30,399 nucleotides of DNA, from the NCBI RefSeq assembly GCF_004766125.1, contig NZ_SJSA01000004.1, positions 1 to 30,399 on the forward strand, written 5' to 3'. The stretch is from Duncaniella freteri. Its GTDB lineage: Bacteria > Bacteroidota > Bacteroidia > Bacteroidales > Muribaculaceae. A program made the position numbers and the translations under genes. The notes under the pieces are model-generated. The model searched no databases. It saw nothing but the letters and a program-made list of their open reading frames with translations, and was not told where the DNA came from. This document shows, one piece after another, positions 1 through 22,496 of this stretch. Positions within the stretch are counted from its first letter, which is position 1; every line of letters begins with the position of its first letter.

Positions 1-1653
1 AAAGCAGGATTGATGACTGCCGCCGACAAAGTAAAGTTACAGAGCGCATACGACACCGCCCAGGCAGCCAAAGATACGGCCAATACCGCCAAATCTAAGG
101 CCGAGTCCGCTCAGTCAAGCGTTACGGCACTATCCGATAAGATTGGTGCCCCTAATGGTATTGCTCCACTTGATGCCAATGCAAAGGTGCCTGCCGCCAA
201 CCTTCCCGGCTTCGTAGATGATGTCGTAGAGTTTAACGCTATGGTAAGTGGCGTTACTTCGCAAATGGCATCTTCAATCCATAAATCGACCGACGCAGGT
301 TGCATGGTAGTGTATGACACCGACAACGACGTATTCCTTCTCGCAGTGTCGAAAGTTGCTGTTTCAGATAATACTCAATGGGGAATTATCAAACGCCCCA
401 TCAAGAATCTGAATGCCGCCACTCCCGCTGTTGAAGGTGGAACCCTCCAACAGCAAATCAATGTGTCGGATTACTGGCAGATTCAAAACGGTGGCGCAAG
501 CCTCATTCTCACGCAGTTCACATACTACAACAACTGGCTCGACGCTGATGCCTATGGAACAGGCACAGCCGCAGGTCGTGTGCCCGAAGGAGGCAAGATT
601 TACACCTGCACCTCGGACAACAAGACCTTCCGTTGGAGCGGTTCTGAACTCGTAACCATTGGCTCTGACCTTGCACTTGGACACACTGCAAGCACCGCTT
701 TTCCCGGTGATGAGGGCGCACAGCTTCAAGAAGATTTAAAGGACACCCGTGATGAAGTTCAAAATGAGTCCATGCGTGTCAATAATATCGGTATATTACC
801 CTTTGACGGATTCTATGAGGACAACCCTGACCAAAGCACCGGCGTTTGGTATCGCCGTTATCCTGCCAATGAGGGAGGCACCTGCTGTATGTGGTCAAAC
901 AAATTTCCAGAAGGGTATCATCCTACCGACTACAACACCACTTTCCACGGGTTCCAAAAAATCCGTGAAGATAGAATTTTCCGTCTTGCAAACGACCTCT
1001 ACCGCTTTGATGGAGAGAATCTCGTTAAGGTCGGGGGCGCATCCGTCGGCAATGTCTATAACCTTACTGCCGAACTGCCGACACCTGACCCGGAAAAAAT
1101 CTTCTACACCCTCAACGATTCAACCGATAAATACTATGCCCCTGCCGCTGTATTAGCCCAGGGCAAAGCAAAAATCGGTATGGATATAACTTTCGCCATA
1201 GCCAAAGGCTCATGGAAAAGCTACAAATATATCGGTCTTACACTTGATGCCAACGATGTTCTTGACAAAGATAATTGGCTCGATCTTGCCGGAATGTCGG
1301 CAGGCTCGGAGCCGTTTGTCAACATCAATGCGGTATGTGAGGATAAGGATTACACCCTCTCACTTGCGATTCAGGCTCTGCTCGACCTCAAAGAGACCAC
1401 AGGCATAGACTATCGTAAGGAGGGTATGGTCATAACCTATCGCCGGAGTTCCAACCCCTTTGTTTGGGAGACCAAGCAATATCAAGGTGCGTTGACCGAC
1501 CTTACCGCAACCAATGAGGCCCAATGGGTTGACTTCGGCAATGGCGGAGGCGGTAAGGTGGAAACCTCAGACACGCCGGAGAAAGATGGCAAAGACGCAC
1601 TATCCACCGGCGGGGCCTACGAGATTCAACAAAAACCAGTTCGCCGGTCTTGA
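1..1653 (+). CDS. Large phage tail fibre/tail protein, N-terminal part (5' partial)
   Basis: The frame is already open at base 1 and reads K-A-G-L-M-T-A-A-D-K-V-K-L. This resembles the GLM(S/T)AADK-KL motif common in phage tail fibres, so the true start is probably upstream and TTG 10 or ATG 13 are internal. Residues about 15-45 are an Ala/Lys/Thr-rich probable coiled coil. The rest has repeated W/Y-rich segments typical of fibre shaft modules (FRWSG, NVYNLTAEL, TNEAQWVDFGNGG). The frame stops at 1651 just after the run of five A at 1631-1635. Removing one A would continue straight into the frame of the next ORF (EIQQ-NQFAGLEMV). I therefore read this as the front of the same giant tail protein, broken by a +1 frameshift or an assembly indel. 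The fibre family is inferred from composition and context. Confidence 0.7.
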   Translation, partial: KAGLMTAADKVKLQSAYDTAQAAKDTANTAKSKAESAQSSVTALSDKIGAPNGIAPLDANAKVPAANLPGFVDDVVEFNAMVSGVTSQMASSIHKSTDAGCMVVYDTDNDVFLLAVSKVAVSDNTQWGIIKRPIKNLNAATPAVEGGTLQQQINVSDYWQIQNGGASLILTQFTYYNNWLDADAYGTGTAAGRVPEGGKIYTCTSDNKTFRWSGSELVTIGSDLALGHTASTAFPGDEGAQLQEDLKDTRDEVQNESMRVNNIGILPFDGFYEDNPDQSTGVWYRRYPANEGGTCCMWSNKFPEGYHPTDYNTTFHGFQKIREDRIFRLANDLYRFDGENLVKVGGASVGNVYNLTAELPTPDPEKIFYTLNDSTDKYYAPAAVLAQGKAKIGMDITFAIAKGSWKSYKYIGLTLDANDVLDKDNWLDLAGMSAGSEPFVNINAVCEDKDYTLSLAIQALLDLKETTGIDYRKEGMVITYRRSSNPFVWETKQYQGALTDLTATNEAQWVDFGNGGGGKVETSDTPEKDGKDALSTGGAYEIQQKPVRRS

Positions 1654-4600
1654 AATGGTTCCCGACCCGACGGATTATATAATCCAGGGTGTGAGCAAAG
1701 CTGGCAACCCCATAGGCGACAGCATCAAGATTCCGAAGAGCAACGGGGCCGGAACAGCAAGCGGCAGCACACTTACAATCTACTGCGATCAGGCGGTATG
1801 GGGTGCTTTCGGCAGTGAGGTTTCACTTATGGTTGCTATCAAGAGCGTAAGTTACGATGGCGAGGATGAGGTTCTCGGAACAATCCGAACCATCAGTATC
1901 ATTGACCCCGTGACCAACATTGAACTCTGGAGCGAGGTTAAGAACGAGCGTTCATCAACGAGTGCCGCCGACTTGAAATTCAAGTTTGATTTCACCGACT
2001 TCATCACATCAGCATCGAGCCGAGATTTCATCATTCAGGCTACCGATGCCGATGGCAACCGCCGAACCAAGACCATCACCGTTACCGCTGTCGATGTTAC
2101 CTGCACCTGCATACAGACCCTCAACTATTCAACATCAACCGCACTGGAAGTAGGCGTTAACCGAGACAAGAGTCTGCCGATGTATAAGTTTGAGAACAAC
2201 GTGTCAACGCGCCTCGGTATTCTCGTTACTACCGAGATGTTCTACAACGGTGAGTGGCGTACACTCGGCACGGCCACTGTTGTTGATTCGTACTCCCACA
2301 ACATATCCATCAATCCGTGCAATGTATTCGGAGGTGGAGAGCGTCTGGAACACGGTGCATATCCAATCCGTATTCAAGGCAAAGACCTTGCGTCCGGCGT
2401 TGTCGGCAATATGGTGTATACCGCCGTGATGTGTGTTGATTCCACCAACGCCACGCCTATTGTCGTAATGCGTTACGATGATCGCACTGAGGGCAAAGTG
2501 CGCCTGTACGATTCAATATCTGTCGATGTGGCGGCATATACTCCCGGCAAGACCAATACTCCGGTAGAGGTGATGATTGACGGGCATATTGCGACCACCG
2601 TCAATTGTCCCATCGGTCAGCCTTACAATGTGAGCAAGCAGATACAAGGATATGCCACCGACGGCTCAAAGAGCTTTGATGTGTACGCCCGGAGCGGAGC
2701 AAGCAAAAGTGAAACTATCACGCTTACCGTTGAGGGGTCTGCTATCGACGCATCTTTGAAAGAGGGTGCGCTGTTCTCGTTTGATTTCTCCACCAGAAGC
2801 AACACCGAGACCGACCACAGAATCATTGACAACGGCTATGAGATGACTCTGAACGGCTGTAACTATAACTCCAATGGTTTTGTCAATGTTCTTGGCGAAA
2901 CGGTATGCCGTATTGCAGAGAATGTAACCGCTGAGATTCCTTATGCACCGTTCTCATCTGCCGCTTTGGAGACTGCCGGAGCCGCAATCCAGTTAGCGTT
3001 CTCTACAAAGAGTATCAAGGATAAGAACGCTATGCTCTGTGAGTGCTATGACCCGACAGCCGGTGTGGGTTTCTATATTCGCGGCAATGAGATTGTCCTC
3101 AGTGTCCTTAACGGAACACCCAAGCAGCAGCGCGTCGGATTCAAATGTGGTGAGAAGATCACTGTTGCCGTTGTTGTGGAACCCGGCACAAAGTATGTTA
3201 CCTACAAGGGTATCAACTATTCCTTTGTCAAACTGTATGTCAATGGTGAGGAATGTGCCGCCATCGGTTATCAGCCCGGTACAAGCGCACTCCGCCAAAG
3301 CAAGAACATCACGTTCAACTCTGCCAATGGCGATTTCAACCTCAACTACATCATGCCTTATTCAAGTTACATGGAATGGTTGCAGGCGTTCCGTAACTAC
3401 CTCTGCAAACTGAGTAATGTTACCGCCATGATTGCCGAGTATGACAAAGAGAATGTGCTTGATACCACCGGCAAACCCTCTATGTCGCTCATGGCGGCAA
3501 AAGGTATGCCTTACTATGTCATTGTTGCAGATCAGACCACGTTCAACAACTTTGACTATGCCCTCAACGGCGGAACTTCCACCTCTGACCAATTCGCCTG
3601 CACGCTTTACTACTACAATCCACAGCACCCGGAATGTAACTTTAAGGCGATAAATGTTCTTTGGCGTCGGCAGGGTACCACCTCGGCACAACGCCCGGAG
3701 AAGAATGACCGATTCAACTTCAATAAGAAGAACAAGACCACGGGACTCAAGGCGACTGTAACTCTGCTGAATCCCGATGACAGCACCGAACTCGGCCGTA
3801 AGGCGATACTTGCCGCCAAGCATAACAAAGTATTCGTTCACGAGACCGGGCATTTTGTCGATGTTATCACAGTAAAGAAAGACTACTCTGACAGCTCGAT
3901 GGCGAATGACTGTGGCGTTTGCGACCTCATGAACGCCACGTTCCGCTCCCTCGGCTCATCTTACCTCACGCCGGCGCAACGCGCCTTTGACGGTACCCAA
4001 GACCTCGGAGACGGTGATATACTCACGGGTATTCAGATGGATCACTCCACAAAGAATCACCCCATCGCTTATTTCCGTGCAACGACAGACACCTTGCAGG
4101 ATGCTTGGTTTCAGGCTCGTGGTAATTGGAAAGAGGATAAGGGCGAGCAGGTGGCTCTTGGATTCAAGGACACACCCGGCTACAACCTCGGATGTCTTAA
4201 CTACGGTGATTTTGTGGAGTATTTCGGTACACCCGATGAGACTCTTGCCCAGACAGAGGCGCGATTCAAGGCAGACCCCGAAACCAATACTGAAAAGGCA
4301 CACGGAAACGTGTATCTCATATCTCAGTATTGCGGTCGAGATTATGCAATATATCGCTACAAGAACGGAGCATGGACTCGTTCAACCGGCTCAATGAAGC
4401 AAGTAAACGGGAAATGGGTCGTTACTGGAGATGTTCTTAACCCCGTGACGGGTTATGAACTGTTGCAGTATGCCGGAATGGACTGGTGGCAGGGTGTAAA
4501 CACTGTCGAGGATATGATGAAACCGACTACGCAGAAATCCTCATGGGTGAACAAACTCGGACTCGCTGCCACTGAATACCCGGCTTGGACATACTACTTT

Positions 4601-6730
4601 GAGTGTATGGTCGATGATGATCAGCTTCAGGAAGACCTGGCACTCGGCAAAAAGGTTCCTTACGACCTGTTCAATATGCTCAGGTTCTTTGATTCATGCG
4701 ACTATTCTAAAGTAACGGGATGGGAGAAGATATGGAAGGAGAACGCCTATCGCTATATGTCGCTGGAGTCGGCTATGGCATACACCGCGTTCACCGACTA
4801 TCTCGCCGCCGTCGATCAGCGTGCAAAGAATATGCAGCCTATGTTCTTCCTTGAAGATGGGTGTTCTGTTGAGAATGGCGTTTACTCCGGCTACCGCAAC
4901 ATGGAGCCAACCCGAATGTATCTCAATAAAGTGTATGACTGCGATACTTGCAACGGAGCAGACAACGACGGTGGACGCGATATTGATGCGGAGGTTGACC
5001 CCAACAAGATGACTGATGAGGCTACCGGATACACTAACCCCTACATGGGTTATGGCTCCGTGCTGTTCAACAATATCGACCGTCAGCAAGAGTGCTGGAA
5101 TAGCAACGATCTCGGAGTAACGACAATCTCCTTAAAGAGCGTTGTGAACCGAATGCGCAATCAGACAGCCGAGATTGGCGGAAAGACAATGGCTCCATTC
5201 TCACCGGATGGCGCAATGTATTTCTTTGTAGAGAGCCGTCTGATGTTCTGGCCCAAGACCATAGCGACCTATGATTGCGAATCAAAGTATATTGACAAGA
5301 CACACTTTGCCAATATGCCATACTTCTATGCCCTGCATGGTCTCGGCTTGACATCGCTACCCCGATTCATCGAGCAGCGTTGGGCAATCCGCGACGGTTA
5401 CTATCAGACCGGCGATTTCTTCACCAATCCCCTCAGCGGTCGTGTGTCGGCAATTTCCTCTAAATCCAAAATCTATATCACGGCAGCCGCTACGGGCTAC
5501 TTCGGTATAGGTAATGATGCGAGCGGTCAGTTGTCTGAAACCGTCTATCTCGAGGCGGGTCAGAGCCATGCTTTTACTGATTTTGCACACGATTCGGGTG
5601 CGCTGCTCTACATCTACAATCCCGGGCGAATGAGTCGCATTGACCTGTCAGAGATGTCGCTTGCGTTCCACTTTGACGATTTGAGCAAGCTGGAACTTGC
5701 CGAAGAGATTATCCTTGGCGGTAACAAACACTCGGCAAATACCTCGCTTAACGGCTTTAACCCCCTCGGTTCAATAGTTCTTGGCGATTTGCCGTTCTTG
5801 CGTGTGCTTGATGTCAGCCTCACAACGGCTACGAGTATCGACGCAAGCGGATGCCCTCGTGTTGAAAGCATCATCGCCAACAATACGGAGCTGACAACGT
5901 GTAACCTTGCACAGACTTCCCCGATTGAGACGCTGACACTCCCGGCTACAATGACATCGCTTGAACTCGTCAACCTGCCTAACCTCTCTTTCCCCGGCGG
6001 TCTTACCATTGAAAGTGTCGGCAGTATCACGCGCCTTTGGGTTGAGGGTAGCAAGTATATCGACACCGAGACACTTCTGCTTGATGTGGCCCGCGCCGGT
6101 GCCATCCGAGAGGTACGAATACCCGATGTGAACGTAACGGCATCCGTTACCGTTCTGCGACTGCTCCGCAATTCCGGTGCCATAGGTCTTGATGCCTCCG
6201 GCGCCGCCTATGAGGAAAGCAATCAGTGTTCAGGTGTGATCGGCCGATGGATTCTTACAGAACTCATCAAGGAAGAGGATAGCGACGGTCTCGCCGGACT
6301 CAATAGCCTCAACCGCTACTTCCCCGAATTGGAGGTTATCAACTCACAGTATTCTCATATCTGCTTTTCAGATTTTGAGAACGACACCGAGAATATAACC
6401 AACATGGATGACAGCACGGGCTACAAGTTCGGCAATGCTTACACCGTTCCCGGCCACTGGGCGAAAATCGAAGAACTGAGCCACGCCTACAAAGCCACGT
6501 TCAACTCCCGTGATGGCAAAATGCACCTCCGCCAAATCAGCGATGCCGATTATGGCAAGATGAAAGACGGCACGGATTATGACCCGGCCGACCTTGCAGG
6601 TGAGGGTTTCGACATCATGAAAGACATTTACCCCATTGGCGTAAGGGTGTCAACGACTTCAAGACTCAGGAGAAGCACACCTTCATCAGCTCATGTCCGA
6701 ATGAACCCATCTCAACCGCAACAAGGGTGA
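1586..6730 (+). CDS. Giant CotH/LamG-like tail protein (central part)
   Basis: About 1,700 residues in one frame. After the junction come two to three Ig-like beta segments (GSTLTIYCDQAVW; SISVDVAAYTPG), then a jelly-roll/LamG-like segment (ALFSFDFSTRS to KLYVNGEECAAIG). Next is a region resembling CotH-type phage tail proteins (VLWRRQGTTSAQRP followed by ITVKKDYSDSSMAN). The C-terminal third has leucine-rich beta-solenoid-like repeats (RVLDVS, IDASGCPRVESI, LTLPATMTSLELVNLP). Probable role: distal tail structure or host adhesion. Start is uncertain: ATG 1586 is the first ATG with reasonable spacing, ATG 1655 directly follows the upstream stop, and a continuous reading from the upstream frame is at least as likely. 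At 6631-6634 a four-C run separates this frame from the DGR target frame; coding sense continues in frame 1 as P-H-W-R-K-G-V-N-D-F. The last 32 codons here are probably out-of-frame. Confidence 0.7.
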   Translation: MAKTHYPPAGPTRFNKNQFAGLEMVPDPTDYIIQGVSKAGNPIGDSIKIPKSNGAGTASGSTLTIYCDQAVWGAFGSEVSLMVAIKSVSYDGEDEVLGTIRTISIIDPVTNIELWSEVKNERSSTSAADLKFKFDFTDFITSASSRDFIIQATDADGNRRTKTITVTAVDVTCTCIQTLNYSTSTALEVGVNRDKSLPMYKFENNVSTRLGILVTTEMFYNGEWRTLGTATVVDSYSHNISINPCNVFGGGERLEHGAYPIRIQGKDLASGVVGNMVYTAVMCVDSTNATPIVVMRYDDRTEGKVRLYDSISVDVAAYTPGKTNTPVEVMIDGHIATTVNCPIGQPYNVSKQIQGYATDGSKSFDVYARSGASKSETITLTVEGSAIDASLKEGALFSFDFSTRSNTETDHRIIDNGYEMTLNGCNYNSNGFVNVLGETVCRIAENVTAEIPYAPFSSAALETAGAAIQLAFSTKSIKDKNAMLCECYDPTAGVGFYIRGNEIVLSVLNGTPKQQRVGFKCGEKITVAVVVEPGTKYVTYKGINYSFVKLYVNGEECAAIGYQPGTSALRQSKNITFNSANGDFNLNYIMPYSSYMEWLQAFRNYLCKLSNVTAMIAEYDKENVLDTTGKPSMSLMAAKGMPYYVIVADQTTFNNFDYALNGGTSTSDQFACTLYYYNPQHPECNFKAINVLWRRQGTTSAQRPEKNDRFNFNKKNKTTGLKATVTLLNPDDSTELGRKAILAAKHNKVFVHETGHFVDVITVKKDYSDSSMANDCGVCDLMNATFRSLGSSYLTPAQRAFDGTQDLGDGDILTGIQMDHSTKNHPIAYFRATTDTLQDAWFQARGNWKEDKGEQVALGFKDTPGYNLGCLNYGDFVEYFGTPDETLAQTEARFKADPETNTEKAHGNVYLISQYCGRDYAIYRYKNGAWTRSTGSMKQVNGKWVVTGDVLNPVTGYELLQYAGMDWWQGVNTVEDMMKPTTQKSSWVNKLGLAATEYPAWTYYFECMVDDDQLQEDLALGKKVPYDLFNMLRFFDSCDYSKVTGWEKIWKENAYRYMSLESAMAYTAFTDYLAAVDQRAKNMQPMFFLEDGCSVENGVYSGYRNMEPTRMYLNKVYDCDTCNGADNDGGRDIDAEVDPNKMTDEATGYTNPYMGYGSVLFNNIDRQQECWNSNDLGVTTISLKSVVNRMRNQTAEIGGKTMAPFSPDGAMYFFVESRLMFWPKTIATYDCESKYIDKTHFANMPYFYALHGLGLTSLPRFIEQRWAIRDGYYQTGDFFTNPLSGRVSAISSKSKIYITAAATGYFGIGNDASGQLSETVYLEAGQSHAFTDFAHDSGALLYIYNPGRMSRIDLSEMSLAFHFDDLSKLELAEEIILGGNKHSANTSLNGFNPLGSIVLGDLPFLRVLDVSLTTATSIDASGCPRVESIIANNTELTTCNLAQTSPIETLTLPATMTSLELVNLPNLSFPGGLTIESVGSITRLWVEGSKYIDTETLLLDVARAGAIREVRIPDVNVTASVTVLRLLRNSGAIGLDASGAAYEESNQCSGVIGRWILTELIKEEDSDGLAGLNSLNRYFPELEVINSQYSHICFSDFENDTENITNMDDSTGYKFGNAYTVPGHWAKIEELSHAYKATFNSRDGKMHLRQISDADYGKMKDGTDYDPADLAGEGFDIMKDIYPIGVRVSTTSRLRRSTPSSAHVRMNPSQPQQG

Positions 6731-8028
6731 ACCGCAAGCATCTTGCCGATATTATGGTAAAATCTCTTGCCGCAATCTTCACCGACAATGTTGTTGCCGG
6801 CGGAGATTATGAGATTACCGACAACCCCAACATGAATGTCTACGAACTTGATGTTGCGGGTATGAAACAAGTCCGCTGGCCCGGAGTCAACAACGCCATG
6901 ATTGGTGCCGTGTTTGTCGGAGAAGATGGAAAGGTTATCAAGAAGTTCAACATGAGCGTCGGTGCCGCACTGTTCGACTTTGTGAACGGCGAGTATGTCT
7001 ATACGGATGTTCCTAACGGAGCGGTCAAAATCGTGTTTACATCACCTGTCGGATTTGACAATCTGGAGGCGATAGCCGTTGACAGCTCGGCAGTCGAGGC
7101 GATAGAACCCGATTGGGTGTATATCGGTGGCTCCCTTGACAACCCTGCCATCCGTGAACTCGTAGGCGTGTATGGTATGACACTTGACTCTCTTATGCGC
7201 GCCCGCTCAATCAGCGGTGCCGTTACCAAGCGAGGCGAGAACAACAATACCATCAATCCCGATTGGCAGTATGATAACGATGGTAATCTTACCAACGCCA
7301 CGGTACCCTCATCAACTATGACGGGTTCCGCCGCCAACCTCATCAATCTGTGTCGTATGCGCGGCCCCGGTTTTTACAGCATCGACTACGAGATGAGAAT
7401 TGACATTGATAACCTTGTTCTCGGCATCATAGGTGATCGCGATGTTCAGGCAGTGTGCGGTTATGGTTGCGGTTCCGGATATTCCACCGGTGCCAACGGC
7501 ATGAACGCCTACGGCAACGTGACCAGACGCTGGAATGGCGGTAACACAGGCAATATCATCTTCGGCATTCAGAACTATGTCGGCTGTAACTCCGAGTGGC
7601 AGGACAATGTAGCGGTCAATGTGCCGAGCTTTGTAGAAATGCGCCGCCAGCGATATGCAGAGGTTGCAGCGTTCCCGATTGACGCCAAGTGGCATATCTA
7701 TAATCCGCTCACTAAGACGGAGCGTGTCGTGCAGGGTATCACGGATACCAACGGAATGTGTGTCGCCCGTGTCAAACATGGCCGCTATTGCGACATGATA
7801 GCCTCTCGCTGTACCACTGACACAAGCAAATACAACGAGAACTATTCCGACGGCCATTGGTACACAGCCGGGCGAAGCCGTGTCCCTCTGCGGTCGGGCT
7901 ACAGCGCGTATGCGCATGGCGGTCTCGCGGACTCGGCTGCGAATAACGCCGGGACGTACTCGGGCGTGAGCTGCGGCGTGCGGCTGGCCTTCAGAGGCGA
8001 GTGCGTGTTCGACGACGAGGCAGCGTAA
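6727..8028 (+). CDS. DGR target protein: receptor-binding tail tip with C-terminal variable region
   Basis: GTG 6727 is the first start in this frame, but coding sense extends upstream to about 6632 (W-R-K-G-V-N-D-F-K-T-Q-E-K), so it is probably the C-terminal section of the giant tail protein. Residues about 130-380 are Gly/Asn/Tyr-rich (RMRGPGFYSIDYEM, YGCGSGYSTGANG, WNGGNTGNIIFG). The last about 50 residues are the variable region: RVPLRSGYSAYAHGG to CGVRLAF, similar in shape to the C-type-lectin-like ends of known DGR targets (xRVPLRGG...NNAG...GVR). Compared with the template repeat, 13 changes fall on TR adenines and 2 do not. The protein ends in GECVFDDEAA with TAA inside the downstream hairpin. 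In known DGRs such proteins bind the host surface, and diversification alters ligand choice; that role is inferred here from family and tail context. Confidence 0.85.
   Translation: MNRKHLADIMVKSLAAIFTDNVVAGGDYEITDNPNMNVYELDVAGMKQVRWPGVNNAMIGAVFVGEDGKVIKKFNMSVGAALFDFVNGEYVYTDVPNGAVKIVFTSPVGFDNLEAIAVDSSAVEAIEPDWVYIGGSLDNPAIRELVGVYGMTLDSLMRARSISGAVTKRGENNNTINPDWQYDNDGNLTNATVPSSTMTGSAANLINLCRMRGPGFYSIDYEMRIDIDNLVLGIIGDRDVQAVCGYGCGSGYSTGANGMNAYGNVTRRWNGGNTGNIIFGIQNYVGCNSEWQDNVAVNVPSFVEMRRQRYAEVAAFPIDAKWHIYNPLTKTERVVQGITDTNGMCVARVKHGRYCDMIASRCTTDTSKYNENYSDGHWYTAGRSRVPLRSGYSAYAHGGLADSAANNAGTYSGVSCGVRLAFRGECVFDDEAA
7877..7986 (+). other. DGR variable region VR1 (expressed)
   Basis: Aligns without gaps to TR 8500-8609 at an offset of 623. 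Substitutions at TR adenines: 8520, 8523, 8527, 8532, 8538, 8559, 8560, 8580, 8586, 8587, 8589, 8593 and 8596 (13 of 25 TR adenines). Two others are not at adenines: T8553 to G and C8590 to T. The first 20 bases (no A in the TR) and the final CGGCGTGCGGCTG are invariant; the latter is the likely initiation-of-mutagenic-homing segment. In frame, TR Asn codons become Y, S, Y, H, A, Y, G and S. Confidence 0.95.
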
Positions 8029-8048
8029 AACGCAGAGCGCGTTTTGCG
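8024..8048 (+). other. DGR-type hairpin/cruciform downstream of VR1
   Basis: A 10-bp stem with one G-T pair (arms 8024-8033 and 8039-8048) and the 5-nt loop AGAGC. It contains the stop codon of the target gene and lies 37 nt after the end of VR homology. A short hairpin just past VR is known to stimulate retrohoming in the Bordetella phage DGR. The same hairpin is repeated after VR2. The role here is inferred from position and structure. Confidence 0.7.
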
Positions 8049-8101
8049 AAAAAACGACAGAGGGAGAGCCGACCAACGGGAGGCTGCTCCTCTCTCTTTA
8101 T

Positions 8102-8116
8102 CCCGCCTCTGGCGGG
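8102..8116 (+). terminator. Hairpin after tail gene (copy A), possible terminator
   Basis: CCCGCC-TCT-GGCGGG, a 6-bp GC-only stem with a 3-nt loop, followed by an AT-rich but not purely T tract (TCGATAAATTTTGATTTTT). It is a plausible weak terminator for the tail operon; a structural role in the DGR locus is also possible. Confidence 0.45.
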
Positions 8117-8154
8117 TCGATAAATTTTGATTTTTCTAATTGACCGATTTTTAG

Positions 8155-8162
8155 TAATTTTG
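8155..8162 (+). promoter_or_regulatory. Bacteroidetes -7 element in copy A
   Basis: TAATTTTG matches TAnnTTTG exactly. It lies 25 nt upstream of the VR2 cassette, so VR2 could be transcribed from here. No -33 TTG at the usual 19-21 bp spacing is obvious, so the call rests on the -7 element and on the identical copy before the TR. Confidence 0.5.
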
Positions 8163-8187
8163 TACCCAAAAGGTAGATAACCTCAAT

Positions 8188-8297
8188 GCCGTGTCCCTCT
8201 GCGGTCGAGCGACAACGCGAATGCGGGTGGCGGTCTCGCGTACTCGGTTGCGAATTACGCCGGGACGGTCTCGGTCACGAGCTGCGGCGTGCGGCTG
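8188..8297 (+). other. Second DGR variable region VR2 (no open start; silent cassette)
   Basis: Aligns to TR 8500-8609 at an offset of 312. It has 12 substitutions, all at TR adenines: 8523, 8538, 8539, 8559, 8560, 8568, 8580, 8581, 8586, 8587, 8593 and 8596. There are no changes at the 85 non-A positions. The translation in VR frame (RVPLRSSDNANAGGGLAYSV and on) is open to the TAA at 8337. Just upstream in that frame is TAA (8179-8181) with no start codon between, so VR2 is not part of an ordinary gene. Its first 35 bases are closer to the TR than to VR1, while everything 3' of it is VR-type. This is what a TR x VR unequal crossover would leave, followed or accompanied by adenine mutagenesis. 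Confidence 0.92.
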
Positions 8298-8334
8298 GCC
8301 TTCAGAGGCGAGTGCGTGTTCGACGACGAGGCAG

Positions 8335-8359
8335 CGTAAAACGCAGAGCGCGTTTTGCG
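8335..8359 (+). other. DGR-type hairpin downstream of VR2
   Basis: Identical to the hairpin at 8024-8048 (10-bp stem, AGAGC loop). Its presence means VR2 keeps all visible cis features of a retrohoming target. Confidence 0.65.
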
Positions 8360-8413
8360 AAAAAACGACAGAGGGAGAGCCGACCAACGGGAGGCTGCTC
8401 CCTCTCTCTTTAT

Positions 8414-8428
8414 CCCGCCTCTGGCGGG
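8414..8428 (+). terminator. Hairpin upstream of TR promoter (copy B)
   Basis: Second copy of CCCGCC-TCT-GGCGGG. It would separate VR2 transcription from that of the TR if it acts as a terminator; it has only an AT-rich tail, so this is uncertain. Confidence 0.4.
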
Positions 8429-8466
8429 TCGATAAATTTTGATTTTTCTAATTGACCGATTTTTAG

Positions 8467-8474
8467 TAATTTTG
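8467..8474 (+). promoter_or_regulatory. Bacteroidetes -7 element for the TR/RT transcript
   Basis: TAATTTTG, an exact TAnnTTTG match, 25 nt before the first base of the template repeat. A start a few bases downstream would give an RNA that begins shortly before the TR and runs through the spacer into the RT gene, as DGR RNAs do. It is the best candidate promoter for the DGR RNA and RT. Confidence 0.55.
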
Positions 8475-8499
8475 TACCCAAAAGGTAGATAACCTCAAT

Positions 8500-8609
8500 G
8501 CCGTGTCCCTCTGCGGTCGAGCAACAACGCGAATGCGAATGGCGGTCTCGCGTACTCGAATGCGAATAACGCCGGGACGAACTCGAACACGAACTACGGC
8601 GTGCGGCTG
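8500..8609 (+). other. DGR template repeat (TR)
   Basis: 110 bp that is the adenine-rich parent of VR1 and VR2. It has 25 adenines, none in the first 20 bases, mostly in AAC/AAT codons in VR frame (RVPLRSSNNANANGG, then NANNAGTNSNTN). AAC codons in the TR are the classic design feature, because adenine mutation at the first two positions gives many amino acids but no stop codon. VR/TR identity ends at CGGCGTGCGGCTG. The TR continues ACATTAAGG where the VRs read GCCTTCAG, giving the usual 3' difference that makes transfer one-way. Confidence 0.95.
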
Positions 8610-8773
8610 ACATTAAGGACTATAATCATGGGCGGGTTAACCGCTCTTATTATATAAATCGCCACACTGCAACGTCCACGTGCTGGGCAATGAAAGAGAC
8701 GAGAGGTTAGAGCCTCGGCAACCCTCGCGCAAGCAGAAAGCCGGAACATAACGAAGAGCCCTGAAGGCGCGTC
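8610..8773 (+). ncRNA. DGR RNA spacer between TR and RT
   Basis: 164 nt without a credible gene. It contains near-palindromic GCGGGTTAACCGC (8632-8644) and a G/C-rich segment with pairable GAGG/CCTC pieces (8699-8735). In studied DGRs the RNA downstream of the TR folds, binds the RT-accessory complex and primes cDNA synthesis. That function is inferred; I cannot fold it here. No Avd-like ORF lies in it. Confidence 0.6.
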
Positions 8774-10207
8774 ATGGAGATTCAGTATCCAATTGATAAT
8801 CTTATCCCAGAGATTGTCAGCGACTCCAATATGTATAGTGGCTATGATTATGTAATCAGCCATTTGGAGAGCAAAGAGCAACGGGCCAAATATGCTCCCG
8901 ACAAGGAGCCAAAGACGGAGTATGATTTTAATACTCCCGAAGAATACGCCGCATATCTGGAACAACAGATTTATGCGGCGAAAGTGCGTGATGCTATAAT
9001 CGGCACTCTGAAAAGGCAGATTGCCGATGGCTCTTTTAGGATCACGCTGAAAGATGTAAAGACACTACGGGTTAAGGATGGACCTAAAGAGCGGGAGTGC
9101 CAGGCACCTAAAGTCCCAAAGCGTGTCGGATGCCATTGTATAATGGTGGTGGTTGAGAAATACACTTATCCCTCACTGATTCACAATACGGGAGCCTCTA
9201 TCAAAGGAAGGGGTATGCACTGGATGCACCATATTATTGAGGATGATATTAAGGCGGTGCCGGGACTGTTTACCCACTATTATAAAAATGACATTTCCCA
9301 TTATTACGACAGTATAAGCCAGGAGCGGATGAAATGCGTAATCCGGCAATACATCAGTGACTCCGTTCTGCTTCCGATTCTTGATAGTTTCATAACGCTG
9401 CTCCCCGAAGGACTTTCAAAAGGATTGCGTTCATCGCAGACTTTCGGAAATCTCTTTATTTCGCCGGTCCACCATAAGATGCTCTCTATGGCAGAACGAT
9501 ATTTCATATCAAATGAGGATGGGAGTGTCGAGGTCAGATATCTCTACTACAACTATTGCGATGATACTGCAATCGGGGGCAATGACAAGAAACGGCTCTG
9601 GCAGTTGCGGGATGTCTATGTTGAGGAGATGGCAAAACTCGGTTTGACTGTCAAACCTAACGAGGCGGTTAGACCGCTTACGGATGGTCTTGATATGGTT
9701 GGTTATGTTCATTATCCGACTCACACCCTGCTCCGTAAGAGAACGAAACAAAATGCGGCCCGGAAGCTGGCTAAGGTTAAATCTCGAAAGCGCCGACAAA
9801 AAATCATAGGCTCTTTCAAGGGTATGGCTTGCCATGCTGACTGCAAGCATTTATATTTCAAATTAACACATCATCAAATGCAAAAATTTTCAGAGATGGG
9901 AATTTCCTATACTCCCGCAAACGGAAAGGAAATGCTCCCCGGCAATGTCGTAAGACTCGCCGCCCTCCAGAATAAGACCATCGAGGTTCACAAGTTCGTA
10001 TCCGGGCAGGAAACCGGCTACGGCAAAGACCGATATATCGTATCGTGCCGCGACCCGCAGACGGGAACTTGGATGAAATTCTTCACCTCCTCCGAAGAGA
10101 TGAAACAGATACTCGAAAAAGTTCGCGACGTTGACGGATTTCCATTTGAGACCATCATCCAAAGCGAGGTATTTGACGGAAACAAAGTAAAATACAAGTT
10201 TACCTAA
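8774..10207 (+). CDS. DGR reverse transcriptase
   Basis: A 477-residue RT that copies TR RNA into adenine-mutated cDNA. The palm is visible in order: the first catalytic Asp at residue 173 (KNDISHYYDSI); the DGR-typical motif with S-S-Q at 220-222 (GLSKGLRSSQTFGNL) in place of the QG seen in most RTs; Y-C-D-D at 261-264; and the KPNEAVRPL / GLDMVGYVHYPTHTLLRKR thumb-side segment. A basic stretch (KVKSRKRRQK) ends the catalytic body near residue 343. About 130 further residues (QETGYGKDRYIVSCRD, WMKFFTSSEE) form an extension I cannot assign. ATG 8774 fits the start of conserved sequence. No Avd gene is adjacent, so an accessory protein, if needed, must be elsewhere or built into the extension. 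Confidence 0.95.
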   Translation: MEIQYPIDNLIPEIVSDSNMYSGYDYVISHLESKEQRAKYAPDKEPKTEYDFNTPEEYAAYLEQQIYAAKVRDAIIGTLKRQIADGSFRITLKDVKTLRVKDGPKERECQAPKVPKRVGCHCIMVVVEKYTYPSLIHNTGASIKGRGMHWMHHIIEDDIKAVPGLFTHYYKNDISHYYDSISQERMKCVIRQYISDSVLLPILDSFITLLPEGLSKGLRSSQTFGNLFISPVHHKMLSMAERYFISNEDGSVEVRYLYYNYCDDTAIGGNDKKRLWQLRDVYVEEMAKLGLTVKPNEAVRPLTDGLDMVGYVHYPTHTLLRKRTKQNAARKLAKVKSRKRRQKIIGSFKGMACHADCKHLYFKLTHHQMQKFSEMGISYTPANGKEMLPGNVVRLAALQNKTIEVHKFVSGQETGYGKDRYIVSCRDPQTGTWMKFFTSSEEMKQILEKVRDVDGFPFETIIQSEVFDGNKVKYKFT

Positions 10208-15189: not shown

Positions 15190-15365
15190 GGGTCAATTTG
15201 ACGATTGTCGGCTATTGTCAAAAATGACCCGATTTGAAAAGGGTTACTAACAAATCCTATTGAAGTTCAGTTATTTCAGCCTCTTAGAGCGGATTTTACG
15301 GCATATTTACGAAAAATTTGTCGTACTTCTGCGTAGTCGGCTGAAAATCTTGTAATTTCAATAGG
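15190..15365. repeat. Nested inverted repeats upstream of integrase
   Basis: Gene-free 15153-15387. It has GGGTCA/TGACCC (15190-15195, 15225-15230, extended by TTTGAC/GTCAAA), CCTATTGAA/TTCAATAGG (15256-15264, 15357-15365) and, inside the latter, TTTCAGCC/GGCTGAAA (15274-15281, 15339-15346). Candidates are integrase operators, an att site, or a folded 5' leader of the integrase transcript. Confidence 0.6.
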
Positions 15366-21869: not shown

Positions 21870-22496
21870 ATGATTAAATTTTCAGCAACAAACGCCCTGG
21901 TTCACTCGGTTACTCCGGTGATTGAGATTGAGTCCAGATCCGGCGGTCAGCCGTTCTGCAAACGGGAACTCATCATTGATGACTCTTGGGAAAAGGATGG
22001 CAAACTTTATACTAACTTCGTTTCAATCGAGTTCACCGGCGACAAGATGGCTCAACTTGACAGAATCTATCCCGGTATGCGTGTGAACGTGGATGGACTT
22101 CTGAGCGGTCGAGAGTATAACAATCGTATCTACAACACCGTCAGTGGGCAGTCGGTTTCTCCTTATCAGGCTCAACAGCCCAGTGCGCCCGCCCCGGCAC
22201 CCATGCCCGGCAGTTATCCTCAACAACCGCAATATCAGCAGGCTCCCGGCTATCAAGCCGCTCCTATGCCCAGTGGTTATCCTCAACAACCGCAATATCA
22301 GCAGGCTCCCGGCTATCAAGCCGCTCCTATGCCCAGTGGTTATCCTCAACAGCCTGCCGCTCCTGCCTATCCTCAGCAACCCCAACAGTATGCCCCATCA
22401 CCTGCACCGGCAACCGCGCCCGTTACGGCTCCTGCACAGCGGCCATACAGTTCACCATCCTCGCCGGGTGTGAATGACTTGCCGTTTCCGCACTGA
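21870..22496 (+). CDS. ssb: Single-stranded DNA-binding protein-like (OB fold + repeat tail)
   Basis: 208 residues. The N-terminal about 100 residues form an OB-type beta barrel (KFSATNALVHSVTPVIEI, CKRELIIDDSW, FVSIEFTGDKMAQLDRIYPG). The Pro/Gln/Tyr-rich tail contains a 21-residue unit (MPSGYPQQPQYQQAPGYQAA+P) repeated. The end is NDLPFPH, close to the D-D-x-P-F tip by which SSB recruits partners, though with fewer acids and an added PH. Located between exonuclease and NinB-like genes. Confidence 0.75.
   Translation: MIKFSATNALVHSVTPVIEIESRSGGQPFCKRELIIDDSWEKDGKLYTNFVSIEFTGDKMAQLDRIYPGMRVNVDGLLSGREYNNRIYNTVSGQSVSPYQAQQPSAPAPAPMPGSYPQQPQYQQAPGYQAAPMPSGYPQQPQYQQAPGYQAAPMPSGYPQQPAAPAYPQQPQQYAPSPAPATAPVTAPAQRPYSSPSSPGVNDLPFPH
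22203..22391 (+). repeat. 63-bp in-frame tandem repeat in SSB tail
   Basis: Units start at ATG 22203, 22266 and 22329. The first two are complete and nearly identical at DNA level; the third diverges after CCTCAACAG. Recent slippage is likely, so tail length may vary between relatives. Confidence 0.85.

Follow-up and report, generated by a model that had tools for sequence, protein, structure and literature searches.

A recent tandem duplication as the probable origin of a TR/VR hybrid repeat in a prophage DGR of Duncaniella freteri

The window, that is, the whole stretch of 30,399 bases analyzed here, is the entire contig C4 (NZ_SJSA01000004.1) of a 3.55-Mb Duncaniella freteri genome in five contigs, and the parts of the DGR cassette lie on its forward strand. 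From left to right, the cassette consists of the tail gene with VR1 at its 3' end, VR2, TR, the RT-3 RNA and the reverse transcriptase (RT), with one copy of a 194-nt spacer between VR1 and VR2 and another between VR2 and TR. The target, a large tail gene, appears as two ORFs, a 5' part at 1514..6730 and a 3' part at 6727..8028 that ends just after VR1. A missing C at 6631 in C4 splits it; in the integrated copy of the phage on contig C2, a single open frame of 2792 codons (stop to stop) takes the tail gene across VR1. Both ORFs match phrog_14959 (unknown function) and the second also matches phrog_5302 (tail protein), while a comparison of the tail fragment with solved structures gave no match at E 0.1. 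VR1, the expressed variable repeat, occupies 7877..7994 by alignment to TR. It is followed at 7995..8187 by the first spacer copy (193 nt here, owing to a missing C at 8089, and 194 in C2), which contains the end of the tail gene, inverted repeats, a terminator-like stem, a promoter-like box and the leader of TR. VR2, at 8188..8305, is a hybrid repeat with a TR-type left flank and a VR-type IMH and right flank. The second spacer copy (8306..8499) separates it from TR, the template repeat, which was placed by alignment at 8500..8617. The RT-3 RNA (Rfam RF03068; 40.8 bits, the gathering score being 40.5) lies at 8657..8762, between TR and the RT gene at 8774..10207. The latter encodes 477 aa with a YCDD motif and matches phrog_1423 (reverse transcriptase, E 9.4e-68), its Pfam RVT_1 match reaching only 19.6 bits, below the cut-off of 29.6. 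With adenine-site TR/VR differences and an adjacent RT, the cassette is a DGR. VR1 lies inside the reading frame of the target (the 2792-codon frame in C2), whereas VR2 does not and, taken alone, is not a target-gene VR.

The integrated prophage copy is about 64.6 kb long and lies on C2 at 453,062-517,644. Contig C4 crosses the joined prophage ends, the two C2 ends overlapping at window positions 15,301-15,317 with two mismatches, and it is the excised form of the C2 prophage. Over 30 kb and outside the att joint, eight places distinguish C4 from C2 (window positions 1631, 6631, 8089, 21842, 25561, 27847, 29472 and 30397). All are single-base gaps in runs of at least two equal bases, which we read as long-read error; the gap at 8089, which makes the two flank copies of the window unequal by one base, is a contig error. 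VR1, VR2 and TR are unchanged in C4, in the C2 prophage and in IMGVR_UViG_2837005551, a record whose 12,379 compared bases equal C2 and which may derive from the same strain; C4 and C2 derive from one assembly. The presence of a joined-end contig and an integrated copy in one assembly suggests phage excision in culture. The same genome carries a second DGR (L011, G000:C3:26394-27173), with an RT 31% identical and TR/VR mismatches at adenines in 22 of 22 cases. Elsewhere in the window, a tandem repeat of about 63 bases at 22197-22351 codes for a proline- and glutamine-rich stretch of a 208-aa protein.

Aligned over their first 110 positions, VR2 and TR disagree at 12 sites, every one of them a TR adenine, which confirms the claim of a first-pass annotation of this DNA; given 25 adenines among these 110 TR positions, the hypergeometric P is 1.5e-9. 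VR1 differs from TR at 15 of the same positions, 13 at adenines, the other two being T54G and C91T. In the tail frame, a TAA stands just upstream of VR2, and inspection by eye revealed no start codon (ATG, GTG or TTG) in that frame either ahead of the variable part or inside it, both in keeping with the first-pass annotation; from there the frame stays open until it reaches a duplicate of the stop codon that ends the tail gene. Because of the stop just upstream and the lack of a start codon in this frame, VR2 is untranslated as a tail end. VR2 was also considered as part of a second gene and rejected as such: the two ORFs over it (8186-8455, 89 aa; 8191-8442, 83 aa) are both off the tail frame, and the frame of the former meets a stop in TR (by eye).

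The IMH of VR2 is of the VR type. The IMH at the VR end reads GGCTGGCCTTCAG, against GGCTGACATTAAG for the IMH* at the TR end, and both VRs of the window carry the IMH-side changes that also mark the VRs of three related loci (L017, L018 and L019). An inverted repeat, AAAACGC-AGAGC-GCGTTTT, which could form a homing hairpin with a 7-bp stem, follows VR1 at 8027..8045 and VR2 at 8338..8356. Perfect stems of at least 7 bp occurred after the VR in just 7 of 100 relatives, L018 among them, and folding of the 70 nt after the VR gave z < -2 in 19% of 103 (mean z -0.9), so that a homing hairpin conserved across relatives was not convincingly found by either the stem search (n = 100) or the folding (n = 103). 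The earlier claim that VR2 keeps the homing hairpin is borne out as to the presence of the IMH and the downstream inverted repeats, the stem being a candidate homing hairpin. In phage BPP-1, according to the portion of PMC3240598 consulted, a target needs no more than the IMH, a hairpin and some homology, and can do without the sequence upstream of the VR. The parts relevant to such a target in cis (IMH, downstream inverted repeats and homology) are all present at VR2 in some form, and by this analogy VR2 could be rewritten by retrohoming.

The -7 promoter element of Bacteroidota is TAnnTTTG. The box TAATTTTG, which we take to fit this element, starts 33 nt before TR (8467..8474) and, in the copied leader, 33 nt before VR2 (8155..8162). 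Of 100 distinct relatives, 57 have TAnnTTTG in the 90 nt that precede TR, where shuffling gives an expectation of 3.2; in 50 of those 57 it starts 21-43 nt before TR. Considering this enrichment, TR probably has its own promoter in this RT/DGR family, and VR2 has probably inherited a copy of it. The box before TR also suggests a dedicated TR promoter in Bacteroidales DGRs. Terminator-like stems are present in both spacer copies, and VR2 may be transcribed into a short RNA. A role as a second template was considered for VR2 and judged unlikely; VR2 is not expected to act as one because it lacks the RT-3 RNA, which follows TR only.

The flanks of VR2 come from two different places. Its left flank is the leader of TR, including the promoter-like box, and its right flank is that of VR1, so that the first-pass description of its flanks as almost identical to those of VR1 applies to the right side and not to the left. 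In C2, the two 194-nt spacer copies are identical at all 194 positions. The repeat unit of 312 nt equals the VR-TR spacing (312) of locus L018, in sister phage G398 (IMGVR_UViG_3300006213_000052), and this spacing is 310-324 in L019-L023. L018 has a single VR. In the other sister phage (locus L016 in G397, IMGVR_UViG_3300035327_000252), a tail-flanked VR, of which 39 bases are unseen, is followed by spacer and TR, and we read it as a single VR because the spacing of about 309 leaves no room for another unit. Since the duplication is absent from both sister phages and its copies have not diverged, it is young, and the earlier view of it as recent holds.

The tail regions of these phages have been reshuffled as well. 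In C2 coordinates, both sister phages are 66-94% identical to the window's phage over about 501.6-504.6 kb, and at 505.4-506.0 and 507.8-510.2 kb G398 is 80-94% and G397 about 100% identical to it. Between 506.0 and 507.8 kb, and again from TR on, L018 matches the window at about 100% identity, but the last 2.4 kb of its tail gene do so at 81-94%, the divergence ending at the VR. The tail end of G397 is the window's version, with 1 difference in 2.45 kb. Because the tail-end divergence of L018 stops at the VR and the flanking parts are about 100% identical, these alignments point to recombination next to the VR. The picture is one of tail-region blocks exchanged between otherwise near-identical phages, the right boundary of the last block lying at the VR. 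In G397 (L223, 12498-12546), the 49 visible bases of the phage's VR equal, from position 13, the TR of Duncaniella muris-type DGRs (L032/L073) and not its own TR; in trans retrohoming from another DGR, recombination or a chimeric contig could each account for this match.

We found that the array is rare among DGR loci. A TR/VR pair was detected in 146 of 194 oriented RT loci of the same RT family; 22 loci that were fragments of the own phage or duplicates of counted loci had been removed beforehand. Some of the 146 are one locus from two collections, and 100 distinct TRs remain. More than one VR occurred only in L009 and L015, both belonging to the window's phage, and an extra VR in 0 of the other 144. 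A further set of 147 loci, 80 from a second RT group of Bacteroidales and 67 BPP-1-like, contained 91 with a pair (35 + 56), and none of these 91 had more than one VR in the stretch retrieved. In the first set, the flanks reached up to 3 kb upstream of the RT (about 1.5 kb in part of the loci) and 1.5 kb downstream, and distant second VRs would be missed in both counts. The 48 of 194 and 56 of 147 loci where no pair was detected are uninformative, some of the 48 starting close to the RT and others being fully flanked. The exact VR2 core was found in viral_contigs in the same phage only, and a flank-pattern search for more VR alleles returned only three contigs, namely those of the own phage, L018 and L017. 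A DNA search of 27 genomes of the genus found only the own genome and a 76% match in G090. Maintenance of the array across strains was therefore not found, as it is absent in the two closest phages and in 144/144 and 91/91 other pair loci. The first-pass annotation had named invariance of VR2 and its absence in all relatives as what would speak against its proposal; both were seen among the copies and loci compared, which weakens the idea of an archive, although the invariance may be that of one strain.

Does VR2 nevertheless hold an old expressed allele? At 15 TR adenine units, VR2 equals the expressed VR of L018 at 8 (5 unmutated in both and 3 GT). The three shared GT all fall on AA units, which seldom carry GT (6% overall). 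With weights taken from the site-specific frequencies of up to 95 relatives (the loci kept after dropping those whose TR and VR lengths differ or which align poorly), the VR2-L018 score is 12.2. Of 3545 VR pairs taken from other loci (mean 3.5, 99th percentile 8.9), a single one scored that high; these pairs are of full-length VRs with at least 11 comparable units, some of them between related phages. A site-specific simulation gave P 0.002, and a cruder unweighted pooled null gave P 0.039 (units) and 0.025 (positions), all for a comparison that was chosen after seeing the alignment and is one of three. VR1 has no such likeness, values as high being found in 0.24 of pairs for VR1-VR2 and in 0.79 for VR1-L018. 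This is suggestive of VR2 containing part of an allele once expressed in the lineage of L018's tail. Because VR2 is untranslated, convergence by selection on it is not a ready alternative, and RT mutation bias at the shared sites may play a part. The first-pass annotation had suggested that VR2 may be a silent allele and had proposed looking for alleles shared between the VR positions. The search yielded the three rare GT units shared with L018 and no whole-allele match. The rare units lend the silent-allele idea some substance, which does not extend to a standing gene-conversion reservoir; that part of the proposal is not supported in view of the distribution of the array, the sameness of VR2 in the three copies and the restriction of its core to one phage.

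Considering the hybrid flanks, the agreement of the 312-nt unit with the L018 spacing and the identical spacer copies, we hypothesized a single non-allelic TR x VR crossover, and VR2 is in our view probably the middle product of a recent tandem duplication that such a crossover made in an ordinary DGR of a Bacteroidales phage. Within the repeat that the two share, TR in one phage copy would have crossed over with VR in another, either a replicating sister or a co-resident sister phage. The product would be tail-VR1-spacer-(TR leader/VR hybrid)-spacer-TR-RT, in which the length of the repeat unit matches the distance from VR to TR. The middle VR would lack the tail frame, because the leader of TR and not the tail gene precedes it, and VR1 would remain at the end of an intact tail gene. 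VR2 would then carry part of a formerly expressed allele and, having an IMH and downstream inverted repeats, might still be able to serve as a retrohoming target. If VR1 and VR2 recombined, the array would collapse, and residues of VR2 could be returned to the tail gene once. Neither retrohoming at VR2 nor its return to the tail gene was observed in the three assembled copies. What stands against the crossover alone is the left half of VR2, where A24G, A39G and A40G are found neither in TR nor in L018's VR. Because this half matches neither, the crossover has to be supplemented by retrohoming at VR1 or VR2 (one event or more) or by another parental allele. The backbone does not point to L018 as the parent either: in the 6.8 kb that extend rightward from TR, 5 differences separate the window from L018 and 2 separate it from L016, and the window's tail end is of the G397 type and not of the L018 type. 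We judge the arrangement to be incidental and unstable, with no sign of being maintained for allele return.

Several other readings of VR2 were weighed against this one. An assembler may loop through VR, TR and spacer, which are repeats, and might have built VR2 as a duplication out of heterogeneous VR reads; C4 and C2 are from one assembly, and the IMG/VR record is possibly of the same strain. Such an artifact is unlikely because the same array stands in the integrated C2 copy and in the excised C4, each with three copies, and only single-base gaps, the pattern of separately assembled long reads, distinguish the two off the att joint; we give it hardly any credence. The possibility that VR2 is a live second retrohoming target, an untranslated sink competing with VR1, is compatible with a crossover origin, and we hold it to be tenable, if somewhat doubtful. 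It would agree with the IMH and inverted repeats kept at VR2, with the modest demands of BPP-1 on a target as given in the consulted part of PMC3240598, and with a change pattern confined to adenines (12 of 12, and no other change in 110), VR1 with its two non-adenine changes perhaps being older. However, VRs free of non-adenine changes are common (54 of 100), so that the clean pattern dates nothing; the likeness to L018's VR points to inheritance of part of the sequence, and VR2 shows no difference among the three assembled copies.

A dedicated silent archive, donating tail alleles by gene conversion like the cassettes of antigenic variation, would profit from the fact that VR2 is stop-free in the tail frame, that the end of the tail gene is repeated after it and that 194 nt of homology lie to its right, and VR2 may indeed hold part of a formerly expressed allele. 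Yet there is one copy only, none in the other pair loci, and no exact core outside the same phage; moreover, direct repeats of this kind tend to collapse, and we consider an archive very improbable. Aberrant retrohoming could have made the duplication and the mutated VR2 in one step, if the cDNA ran past TR into the leader, was joined at the IMH and recombined in the leader. This would yield the same hybrid flanks and directly account for adenine-only changes across VR2, but the leader copy before VR2 is free of the adenine changes expected of mutagenic cDNA unless mutagenesis stopped at the TR edge, and the likeness to L018's VR is left unaccounted for, which makes this route quite unlikely. 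Finally, TR x VR recombination between co-resident sister phages might swap tail ends and park the displaced, formerly expressed VR allele, which a collapse of the array would return. The parked VR, untranslated, headed by a promoter and competent for retrohoming, would be a short-lived memory of an earlier receptor-binding allele; this extension of the crossover, too, seems to us rather unlikely. The duplication by TR x VR crossover remains our preferred explanation.

The cassette resembles the DGR of Bordetella phage BPP-1 in its adenine-biased TR/VR differences, its IMH/IMH* difference, the VR at the 3' end of a tail gene and the RT beside TR. Unlike BPP-1, it has an extra, untranslated VR between VR1 and TR with the leader of TR in front, an RT-3 RNA between TR and RT, and an RT of another lineage. 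With the multi-VR DGRs, as far as described in the excerpts consulted (PMC3521204, PMC8143477, PMC10743442), it shares one TR with more than one VR. Gene duplication is given there as the likely origin of extra VRs (PMC3521204), and Roux et al. classed the genes of further VRs as secondary targets in the part of their paper at hand (PMC8144416). In the descriptions available to us, most extra VRs of multi-VR DGRs lie in the frames of further target genes, whereas here a TR/VR hybrid lies in the spacer itself. One VR of Pelodictyon phaeoclathratiforme was placed outside any identifiable coding region (excerpt of PMC3521204). No description of a TR/VR hybrid repeat in a DGR spacer was found in the portions of one paper collection that we searched; multi-VR DGRs and, once, a VR outside any identifiable coding region had already been reported (PMC3521204). 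Like the silent cassettes of the Borrelia vls type, as outlined in the part of PMC11499132 consulted, the locus combines an expressed site with an unexpressed homologous sequence; unlike them, it has one copy, no transfer was observed and it was not found in relatives.

These results suggest that ordinary recombination can act on the two repeats of compact phage DGRs, whose VR and TR lie about 310 bases from each other, and can thereby double the spacer and give rise to a VR that is untranslated and possibly competent for retrohoming. The array would offer a natural test of whether DGR target choice needs translation or the tail context, of whether the tail gene diversifies less when an extra target is present, and of whether recombination can store tail alleles and return them. 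It may also represent a first step towards multi-VR DGRs.
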